Shown here: piece after piece, positions 12,686 through 16,343 of the stretch
How positions within the stretch are numbered: the stretch's first letter is position 1
Layout of the letters: every line of letters begins with the position of its first letter
DNA from: Acidobacteriota bacterium
GTDB lineage: Bacteria > Acidobacteriota > Terriglobia > Terriglobales > Acidobacteriaceae
Reading direction: 5' to 3'
Length of the DNA: 64,000 bases
Assembly (NCBI GenBank): GCA_021818105.1
Contig: JAKAFB010000001.1
Location: 1 to 64,000, forward strand
Made by a program: the position numbers and the translations under genes
Notes under the pieces: generated by a model
Database searches by the model: none
What the model was told of the DNA's origin: nothing
The model's input: only the letters and a program-made list of their open reading frames with translations

Positions 12686-13449
12686 CGCGATGACTGCCTT
12701 TCAAACTGCATGTTGAAACTGCTGCCCGCGCAGACGTCCATGCCCGCCCACTCGTCCCAAAGCCCGATGGGAAGAAAGGTCGGCGCGGGAGAGAACACGT
12801 GGCTCCACGCGTTCAGCGCAGCCTGCAGAAGCGGGATGCCGCTAGGCGGAGTCTGCACACCGGGTGCCAGCGGTCCAAGCTCCCAATACACCAGGTAATC
12901 GTCTCCAACACATGCCACTGCTCCATCCAGCGGACTCTTTGCCTGAATCTCGCCAAGCACAGAGGCTACGGCCGAGTGAAACTGTGCGGGATTCATCGCG
13001 TCCGGCCGCGCAGCTACAAAATGCTGGATCGTACCGTGCATCCAGTCTGCCGGTTTGTTGAAAAGAAAAACCGGCTGATTCGATGCAAGCGCTCCGCTGA
13101 AAAAAACCGGAAAATCAGCGCGGCTGGCTTGGTTCGCTGTCACGTAAACGCCGCCGTGGGTCAAGGTATAAGTCCGTACCGCAAGCCGCGTGAACCCGTT
13201 CCAGTAGGTGGCCGGCGACTCCCAGAAAAGAATTGCGGTTTCATCCGGTACACCCGCCGGCTTACCGGTCAGCCCTCCGGGAACCGATGGTGTGTACGAG
13301 TTCAGTCCCGCCTCGATTTGCATCTTCACCGTTGCTGGAATAAACACTGCGCCCAGCTTGCTATAAAACTGGTCGATCGGCAGTGCGCTGAATCCGCGCC
13401 ACACTCGCACGGCATCCGGCGCCACAGGCTGCGAGTCAGTCTTCGTCAT
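12682..13449 (-). CDS. hypothetical protein, paralogue of the adjacent downstream gene
   Basis: 255 aa ORF; shared motifs as above; ATGA overlap with both neighbours. Confidence 0.75.
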   Translation of the reverse strand: MTKTDSQPVAPDAVRVWRGFSALPIDQFYSKLGAVFIPATVKMQIEAGLNSYTPSVPGGLTGKPAGVPDETAILFWESPATYWNGFTRLAVRTYTLTHGGVYVTANQASRADFPVFFSGALASNQPVFLFNKPADWMHGTIQHFVAARPDAMNPAQFHSAVASVLGEIQAKSPLDGAVACVGDDYLVYWELGPLAPGVQTPPSGIPLLQAALNAWSHVFSPAPTFLPIGLWDEWAGMDVCAGSSFNMQFERQSSR

Positions 13450-16343
13450 GCTGCGCCTCCTGGCGAGTCTGGTTTGGGCTTGCCTGTTGCAATCACGCGC
13501 TCAGCAACCTTCTCCAGGAAACCCGGCGGAGGAGGCGCTTCCTTCGTCTTGCCGTAGCGGCATTCGTTGGGAAATTGCCAGTGGCGGTTAACGCAGAACT
13601 GGCATGAGCCTGCATTTCGCGACAAAAAGCCTCGGCCATCGTCCAGATCGGTCCACGTCAACTCCTTGGCTGCGTACATGCGCATGAGCACTGAGGCCAT
13701 CAGCGCGTGCGGATCGCAAAACGACGGTTCAAGCAGTGAGAAAACGCCCGGGTACTGCTCCTTCAACCAAGCCTGCGACTCCGCGGCCTCCTTGGCATCC
13801 GCCGGAAGCCGAATCGCCGTGTAGCCTTTTGCATCGAGCGGCTCTGGCAGAACAATTGTGAACCCATGTTCCGGCATCGCCGCTAGACAGGCGGGTTGTG
13901 TTGCCTTCAGTTGGTCCCAGGTATCCGGACTGACCCTGTACTGCTTGAGGAAGTTTGTGTTGTAGGAGAAGTGTGGTGTGATGACCAGCCGCGTGCGGCT
14001 CTGGTATCGCTGCCGCCCAATGGTCACATCGAATTCAAGATATGCTGGATGATCCGGGTCGGTGGTCTCCCGTAGCAGCGTAAAGTCCCTGTCTGCCGGA
14101 TCGCTTGACAACGGAACATCACGCTTCACGTGCCCTCCAAAGGCATTGGCAAACATCTTCCAACTGTCGATGCTCACCACGTAGAGCACCGCCGGGCGCG
14201 TCTGAATCAACTGCTTCATCGCCCATCCCGTGCTGCTCACGCAGTTATCGACGATTGTGTCGATGCTCTCCTGCGCTCCTCCCAGGAATCCTGCTTTCCA
14301 GTGCGGCGAGGCGCACGCCACCATATCCAGTTGGCACACGTCCTCCCCAACGGCCAGCGACGCGCCCGTGTGATCGTCGTCGCGCAGCATTGTCTGAAAC
14401 CTCTCCAGCACCGGAACAAACTGCAGGTAATAGCCCTGTCCCTGCTGAAGCACCTCCGCCTGGATGCCTTCGGGCACGGCCAATTTGCCCGCAATGATGT
14501 CGCCCGCCGCAAACTTATTGTTCGGCGCATACTCGTCGAAGAGCAGCATGTACGGAAAATCGCCTGTTGAGCCAGGCAAGGTCAGCACTGTGTCGGCGCT
14601 GTCCCCTTCATACCGCACATTGACGGTCCATTGCGGCGCATCCGTTGGACGCGCGGCCGACACTACGTATCCATTCCGCTCCGCGATCACTCTGCCCTCG
14701 GGAAGTACAAATCGCTTCACGAATTCCAGTGTCAGGCGCTCCTGGTAGACAGAACGGTACCGGTAATACCACGCGTACTTTGTCCAGGCATCGGTGTTGC
14801 CCTCGGACGAGAAGTTTGGATAAGCCCACGCTGCCCCAGTCTGCCCGGGAAGGAATGCCGTCAGATTCGGATTGATGCCGATCGTCATGATCGGCGCCTT
14901 CCGGCATCCATCCACGATCTCAGGGTTCGGAAACGACGGCGGGCGTGTGCGCCCAATGACCCACGGTGAAGGTCCAGCGGCGCCTGTCGCTTTGGCCGCA
15001 TAGGGCGTATTCACGTCGAAATCGAATGCCGTGTACGGTCCATAAGGCTGCTCGCATTTCCGCTCCGGCCAGAAGAAGGAGCACTTACCGCACGACCGCA
15101 CCTGGTAGGCGAGCTTCACTTCGAGAGGATCGTCCGCATCCGGCGTGCCGCTCGCTCGTGCCGGGTTATAGACTGCGCTGCCTTCGCCCGCAATGGTGGC
15201 CCAAGTGGCCAGCGCTCCGTTAAAGCTCGTGAAAGCGCCGAAGGTTGTGTAGATCAAACCGGACCAATCCCCCCGCACCTTTGCTGAAATCGGTTTACCC
15301 GCTTTTGTAAAGCTCGGCACGATAGGATCAGAGATATTCCTCAGGCACGCAAACCGAATCCCAAGCCGGACGGCCTCGCGCCCCACGATCGCGTCATCCA
15401 TCTCCAGAAACGAATAGGTATCGGCGCTGTCGCCGCCAGCAATGTAATAAAAATCGGTAGTCAGAACTGCCGAATCCTTGAGTGAGCGCACCCTTGGCGA
15501 ACCCAACGACGCGGGCCGGATGCAGTCGTTCGTCAGGTCTTCCACGGTCATCCCCGCCAGACAGGCATCGTCGGGGTTCTTGACTTTGAGTTGATTGAAC
15601 ATGTCCTCCAGCGATTGATCGGTCACAATCCTGTTCATTGGGTACAACAGGTTGTTCTCCACCTCGCTTACCAGGCTCGTCGCCGGAAACCAGCTCGGAC
15701 AGCGGACCATGGTGCCGTTATCCAGATCCATTGTGTTTTGTGACCTCTGCAGGCTCAGCACCGCCGAATTCGCAATGACCGCATCGCCCAGGCGCTCGCT
15801 CTCTCTCGCGCCGCCCGCCGTTCCGATGGTAAAAATGCGGTCCGGCTTTGCGTCATCCAGAATGCACTTGAGCATTGCAGAGAGACCGTTTGCCCACGGT
15901 GCGTGCGCCAGGTGGGAATTCGACTTGAAGAGCAACACGCGCCAGCGGCGTCCAGACCGGTCTGTGATTCCCACAAGCGCAAACTCTCCCCACAGCTTGC
16001 CCGATGATGGATCGGCCGCATAATCTTCTGCGCCCCGGCTGAACGCCATCCACGAGGAACGCCACGAGTAGTCGTTGATGTCGCCGTCCTTGTCGCTATT
16101 CAAGAACACATGGTCGAGCGCGAACCATTCCGCGCTGGTCCATGTCAGCACCACGATATCGGCATGGGGCAGCGGGTCGCTGGGTCTCCGCGCGCCCAAC
16201 GGAATTCGTTCTGGCGCGCTCCGTCCCACTGCGGACCAGTTCACGGCGGGTAAAAGCGCCACTCGCGGCGCGGCGCTCTCTGCCGTGTCTGTGTGGCGAT
16301 TCCACACGGTGAGCGCGGCAGTTTCTATCGATCCTGAAGCCAT
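13446..16343 (-). CDS. large multidomain protein: N-terminal phosphorylase-superfamily-like domain plus central UDG-superfamily-like domain and Cys clusters
   Basis: 965 aa; N-terminal RIFTIGTAGGARESERLGDAVIANSAV and a MDDAIVGREAVRLGIRFACLRNISDPI segment (phosphorylase-like); central IMTIGINPNLTAF (Mug/TDG-like GINP motif); CGKC and CQFC clusters. Confidence 0.6.
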   Translation of the reverse strand: MASGSIETAALTVWNRHTDTAESAAPRVALLPAVNWSAVGRSAPERIPLGARRPSDPLPHADIVVLTWTSAEWFALDHVFLNSDKDGDINDYSWRSSWMAFSRGAEDYAADPSSGKLWGEFALVGITDRSGRRWRVLLFKSNSHLAHAPWANGLSAMLKCILDDAKPDRIFTIGTAGGARESERLGDAVIANSAVLSLQRSQNTMDLDNGTMVRCPSWFPATSLVSEVENNLLYPMNRIVTDQSLEDMFNQLKVKNPDDACLAGMTVEDLTNDCIRPASLGSPRVRSLKDSAVLTTDFYYIAGGDSADTYSFLEMDDAIVGREAVRLGIRFACLRNISDPIVPSFTKAGKPISAKVRGDWSGLIYTTFGAFTSFNGALATWATIAGEGSAVYNPARASGTPDADDPLEVKLAYQVRSCGKCSFFWPERKCEQPYGPYTAFDFDVNTPYAAKATGAAGPSPWVIGRTRPPSFPNPEIVDGCRKAPIMTIGINPNLTAFLPGQTGAAWAYPNFSSEGNTDAWTKYAWYYRYRSVYQERLTLEFVKRFVLPEGRVIAERNGYVVSAARPTDAPQWTVNVRYEGDSADTVLTLPGSTGDFPYMLLFDEYAPNNKFAAGDIIAGKLAVPEGIQAEVLQQGQGYYLQFVPVLERFQTMLRDDDHTGASLAVGEDVCQLDMVACASPHWKAGFLGGAQESIDTIVDNCVSSTGWAMKQLIQTRPAVLYVVSIDSWKMFANAFGGHVKRDVPLSSDPADRDFTLLRETTDPDHPAYLEFDVTIGRQRYQSRTRLVITPHFSYNTNFLKQYRVSPDTWDQLKATQPACLAAMPEHGFTIVLPEPLDAKGYTAIRLPADAKEAAESQAWLKEQYPGVFSLLEPSFCDPHALMASVLMRMYAAKELTWTDLDDGRGFLSRNAGSCQFCVNRHWQFPNECRYGKTKEAPPPPGFLEKVAERVIATGKPKPDSPGGAA

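Follow-up and report, generated by a model that had tools for sequence, protein, structure and literature searches.

A nucleosidase fused to a probable uracil-DNA-glycosylase-like, cysteine-rich domain, encoded beside a DNase II homologue in a rare and mobile operon

The methylthioadenosine/S-adenosylhomocysteine (MTA/SAH) nucleosidases of the MTAN type (PF01048) belong to the purine nucleoside phosphorylase (PNP) superfamily, and the main catalytic residues of Mtn, the Escherichia coli enzyme, are Glu12 and Asp197. Among the uracil-DNA glycosylases (UDGs), families 2 (Mug/TDG) and 3 (SMUG1-like) have a GIN-P motif A, and the 4Fe-4S families 4 and 5 have GE[AG]PG at this place; the Asn that places the water is N18 in Mug, and the Asn that reads the uracil is N80 in Tth UDGa and N123 in Ung (PMC5387724). 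In human UNG, the N204D substitution brings about cytosine-DNA glycosylase activity (PMC11289083). Here we analysed a stretch of 64,000 nucleotides from an Acidobacteriota bacterium (contig JAKAFB010000001.1; hereafter the window), in which an MTAN-type nucleosidase domain is fused to a cysteine-rich domain that is probably UDG-like, within an operon that also encodes a DNase II homologue. The fusion architecture appears to be undescribed, the superfamily of the first domain being already known and the superfamily membership of the second being probable; a literature search of open-licence papers found none on the architecture or the operon.

The fusion is a real, inherited architecture, neither a chance product nor a misassembly, because the same uninterrupted single frame occurs in five independent sources. 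An initial annotation, made from the letters of the window alone, had described the open reading frame (ORF); it exists as such, its 965-residue translation contains every segment then quoted, and the gene is single-copy in its own 3.6-Mb genome. The four full-length homologues lie on the Burkholderia pyrrocinia plasmid NZ_CP091309 (L011, 62.8% identical over 99%) and in metagenome-assembled genomes (MAGs) labelled Acidobacteriia (L013, 67%), Alphaproteobacteria (L014, 58%) and Limnohabitans (L015, 56%). The proteins flanking the last of these give the impression of Bacteroidota, so that the MAG may be mislabelled or the operon may have been acquired by transfer. No relative was found in the viral contigs searched with both domains.

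Residues 55-395 can be securely assigned, by profile similarity, to an MTAN-type domain of the PNP superfamily keeping the aligned catalytic positions. The window protein alone matched Pfam PNP_UDP_1 at E 0.00026 (20.9 bits, under the curated cut-off of 25.1 bits), seven of eight homologues also matched it, some over the cut-off (E 9.4e-14 and 1.8e-10), and a profile of 13 homologues reached MTA/SAH nucleosidases in the PDB at E 2.8e-10 (hmmsearch). The hhalign comparison with E. coli Mtn gave 96.8% (E=2.5e-10), the profile similarity to the PNP/UDP phosphorylase superfamily (MTAN type) extends over both fold halves, and a global alignment pairs E72 and D339, both invariant in 13 sequences, with Mtn Glu12 and Asp197. 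The phosphorylase superfamily proposed in the initial annotation is thereby borne out, but a hydrolytic nucleosidase is likelier than a phosphorylase, because the nearest relatives are MTA/SAH nucleosidases and the Glu12 and Asp197 positions are kept. Unlike MTAN, the domain is joined to a second one, is about 170 residues longer, with inserts, and has not kept the ribose-binding Glu174, which is Asp (D316) in the fusions and Gly in some homologues, next to an extra Asp (D317) that is invariant among the nucleosidase homologues. In two relatives (L023:8257-10779 and L061:863-3382), the nucleosidase is preceded by several hundred additional N-terminal residues, an unassigned region that has a HETGGHDxxHAD motif and is possibly a metallopeptidase.

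These nearest solved relatives would also fit a nucleosidase acting on S-adenosyl compounds (MTA/SAH), in a cluster that serves a pathway for oxidising small molecules and not the breakdown of nucleic acids. The methionine-synthase-like genes adjoining the homologue L096 (judged by eye) and the resemblance of the operon's ferritin-like protein to VioB point the same way; however, Glu174 is not kept, and DNA is suggested by the DNase II and the family-1-like UDG (the latter in L058) within the same clusters, and we regard this pathway as improbable.

Residues ~405-935 constitute a new conserved family with members at ten loci, namely the five fused forms together with L002 (G046), L058 (G486), L006/L023 (G089), L022 (G193) and L012, an Azospirillum argentinense plasmid. 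All ten share GCRKAP, GINPN, [ND]M[VI]AC, a subsequent Cys, a Pro-His motif and G-x-C-x-F-C...C, and the motif analogies picked out in the initial annotation fall on positions invariant across these divergent homologues. The CxxC clusters noticed on either side of the motifs are present as well, not as two stray clusters but within a set of eight cysteines kept in every member (418/421, 480, 677, 701 and 914/917/928 in window numbering), with the second Cys lying 16 residues past the first in three short forms and 3 in the others. Two inserts, at about 550-640 and about 800-895, are missing from the short forms, which have 432-438 residues.

This domain is probably UDG-like, a view supported by the order of its motifs and by the match of its L058 homologue to Pfam UDG (PF03167; E=0.003, 18.1 bits, under the cut-off of 24.3), which aligned the stretch from DMVAC to the following helix. 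On the one hand, it resembles families 2 and 3 in the GIN-P motif A with an Asn at the water-placing position, but it differs from both in its GINPN instead of GINPG and its eight cysteines, and from family 2 in having a motif B His. On the other hand, it shares with families 4 and 5 the CxxC, the [ND]-x-V-x-C, the Cys before a Gln-bearing helix, all in the same order, and the motif B His, and C418, C421, C677 and C701 fit the family 4 order of CxxC, N-V-V-K-C and C before L-x-x-Q; in contrast to these families, it has GINPN at motif A, inserts, a second cysteine set, unlike spacing and no significant profile match. The PH of motif B occurs in ten of ten members, HPS itself being lost in the long forms (PHFS). 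The site that would pair with the uracil-reading Asn is N in three short forms and D (D673 in the window) in the long and fused forms.

The UDG fold is nevertheless unproven, because control scores equal or exceed those of the real comparisons, the hidden Markov model (HMM) ranks of the family against UDGs are interspersed with background, and no structure model was usable. Several points weigh against a UDG: the window's own C-terminal domain has no significant profile match to any family or solved structure, hhalign to family 4 was no better than controls, GINP is followed by N where known UDGs have G or Y, and the distance from C701 to the next Q is three residues greater than in family 4. 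In hhalign against UDG families 1-6, column-shuffled and reversed controls scored equally or better, with Mug as a marginal exception (22.7 against a shuffled maximum of 21.3, aligning the GINPG stretch only). Thus, the UDG-like C-terminus of the initial annotation holds at the level of invariant motifs and one Pfam match, but not in profile scores above controls; no profile search placed the central region confidently in a different fold. A top HMM match, in L094, was rejected as a chance match of 22 residues. The AlphaFold models of the full-length fusion (predicted local distance difference test, pLDDT, 42.2) and of residues 405-808 alone (pLDDT 39.3), each built with four sequences, were too poor to use, and the Foldseek searches on both (best E about 0.02, no UDG) were set aside.

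Such results could also be produced by an unrelated, new cysteine-rich two-metal domain merely resembling UDG motifs, a redox or scaffold module beside a nucleosidase that alone acts on nucleosides. It would be in keeping with the lack of a significant match for the family as a whole in the PDB, Pfam, NCBIfam or PHROGs, with the near-background hhalign scores, which a reversed control surpassed, and with the ferritin-like and Mo-hydroxylase neighbours, which are redox enzymes; four invariant motifs in UDG order and the Pfam UDG match of one homologue speak for UDG kinship instead, and we consider an unrelated domain unlikely, though far from negligible. If the domain is UDG-like, the naturally occurring difference between Asn in short and Asp in long forms would be informative about base choice by these enzymes, and together with the UNG N204D activity it opens base preference to direct testing. 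A more specific scheme, argued by analogy, appears doubtful at best: a new UDG-superfamily family whose base-recognising Asn became Asp in the long and fused clade, giving a natural cytosine-type base-remover that is chained to a nucleosidase and ends a DNA-to-base line initiated by DNase II.

The pairing of the UDG-like family with the nucleosidase is not accidental, because the two are fused (five loci) or directly adjacent (four loci: L012, L022, L023 and L024) in nine of ten cases, with the separate partners drawn from several nucleosidase lineages. The sole locus without a nucleosidase, L058, comes from a genome that is 77% complete. In the nucleosidase tree, the fused forms group together across phyla in a single clade (96/95), and those encoded next door are scattered over three positions. 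The most compelling argument for a joint function of the two domains is this repeated partnering, together with the single fusion. The nucleosidase is in itself uncommon, with 6 of the phylum's 392 genomes carrying it at E<=1e-15, and nine genomes in which it, or something weakly matching it, occurs have no member of the UDG-like family.

The fusion operon is rare and mobile. On the minus strand it encodes, in order, DNase II, the fusion protein, two paralogues without an assigned family, a metallophosphoesterase, protein 6 and a ferritin-like protein (Table 1), with neighbours overlapping by 4 bases or separated by at most about 22 bases, the spacing at the metallophosphoesterase assuming a start chosen by comparison with L013. 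The same order is found in L011, L013 and L015. The nuclease is a clear homologue of Burkholderia DNase II (PDB 5i3e/5unb) with both HxK motifs kept, but is encoded beside the fusion protein and is separate from it. In L013, L011 and L015 the metallophosphoesterase is one intact ORF; because it is split over two overlapping frames in the window, it may be inactive or mis-sequenced there, through decay or sequencing error.

Table 1. Positions in the window of the fusion gene, its domains and motifs, and the other operon genes
Feature	Position	Strand	Remarks
Nucleosidase-(UDG-like) fusion protein, 965 aa	13446..16343	-	full-length homologues L011, L013, L014, L015
PNP_UDP_1/MTAN-like domain, residues ~55-395	15159..16181	-	profile matches; E72, D339 pair with Mtn E12, D197; D316 with Mtn E174
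UDG-like cysteine-rich domain, residues ~405-935	13539..15131	-	comparison of 10 family members
C418-x2-C421, first cysteine pair	15081..15092	-	
Motif A-like GINPN, residues 489-493 (Mug: GINPG)	14865..14879	-	invariant in 10/10
Long-form insert, residues ~552-640, predicted beta-rich	14424..14690	-	missing in short forms
DMVAC, residues 673-677	14313..14327	-	NM[VI]AC in three short forms, D in all long forms
C701, ahead of helix ...KQLIQTRP	14241..14243	-	
Motif B-like Pro-His, residues 790-791	13971..13976	-	PHPT/PHAS/PHAT in short forms
C914-x2-C917-x10-C928, C-terminal cysteine cluster	13560..13604	-	
DNase II family nuclease	16347..17606	-	E 4.7e-71; PDB 5i3e E 9.3e-66; HxK motifs H113/K115, H300/K302 invariant
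Operon protein 3, 255 aa, 'VRVWRGF', without Pfam family	12682..13449	-	39% identical to protein 4, paralogue
Operon protein 4, 268 aa, 'VYVWRGF'	11879..12685	-	paralogue of protein 3
Calcineurin-like metallophosphoesterase, two frames (ORFs 11013-11987, 10225-11016)	10225..11987	-	intact 544 aa in L013
Operon protein 6, 314 aa, without family	9271..10215	-	
Ferritin-like protein	8110..9249	-	PF12902; distant VioB similarity

The most likely role that we infer is the release of bases after DNA breakdown by a fused, probably bifunctional, N-glycosidic-bond enzyme. The operon's DNase II would cut DNA and the phosphoesterase would then strip phosphates, after which the second domain could release bases from oligonucleotides or DNA, and nucleosides would be the substrates of the first; we hold this full scheme, in which the fusion acts after the nuclease and the phosphoesterase, at somewhat less than an even chance. 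In a predicted UDG-superfamily fold (405-935), N491 of GINPN would position the water like Asn18 of Mug, H791 would stabilise the leaving base, C418/C421/C677/C701 would occupy the sites of the 4Fe-4S ligands of family 4 UDGs, and C480/C914/C917/C928 might form a second metal site. Base-oxidising or hydrolysing partners, a xanthine-dehydrogenase-type enzyme and an amidohydrolase, adjoin relatives. The loss of the Glu174 equivalent counts against this role, as do the ferritin-like protein and three unknown operon proteins, which base release leaves unexplained, and the operon has nothing pointing to export, whereas elsewhere the compartments in which DNase II enzymes work are acidic.

A different use of the same enzymes would be as an interbacterial or anti-eukaryote weapon, or as R-body-linked cargo, with DNase II and the base-removers hitting a competitor or grazer. 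The distribution is patchy and mobile (plasmids, several phyla), three RebB (R-body) genes, a Crp/Fnr regulator and a sigma factor lie directly downstream of the operon in B. pyrrocinia (L011:21918-25453), RebB also occurs elsewhere in the L014 genome, and the toxin of R-bodies is unknown (PMC3583457). Against this, no RebB was found in the genomes of the window, L013 and L015, and no delivery domain or immunity gene was recognised; we give the weapon reading little credence. R-body linkage as a general rule was rejected, RebB adjoining the operon in B. pyrrocinia only among the complete loci. Defence against phages, by depleting nucleotides or destroying phage DNA, is suggested by PNP domains found as defence effectors (PMC10952713) and by a weak PADLOC match to a 'PN-superfamily effector' (E 0.0091), but the operon has no sensor or trigger domain and its seven proteins gave no further PADLOC match, which makes such an effector very unlikely.

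Should the second domain prove to be a glycosylase, the fusion would be, to our knowledge, the first chain to unite two different N-glycosidase folds, and UDG-type chemistry would then have a place in DNA catabolism rather than repair. Otherwise, a rare domain with eight cysteines, nearly always accompanied by a nucleosidase and with a DNase II homologue in the operon, still represents an unstudied, horizontally spread enzyme system.

Other neighbourhoods of the family vary in composition. A molybdenum hydroxylase of the xanthine-dehydrogenase type has subunits encoded beside the pair in L022 and L023, an amidohydrolase is joined to the UDG-like domain in L012, and in L066 the nucleosidase adjoins DNase II with the UDG-like gene absent. 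The L058 cluster combines the UDG-like gene with an amidohydrolase, a GDPD-family gene and a Pfam-UDG gene of family-1 appearance (L058:2999-4096), the last with an altered motif, GNDPYTRIGQ. Operon proteins 3 and 4 (window 11879-13449) share their 'VWRG' domain with an amidohydrolase, of which it forms the C-terminal part (L058:5652-6374), which suggests that modules are interchanged among clusters. Beside the operon in the window, a phage- or transposon-like block on the plus strand (19497-25043) encodes a ParB-N6/N4 DNA methylase, a terminase large subunit, a DUF2924 protein and a serine recombinase.

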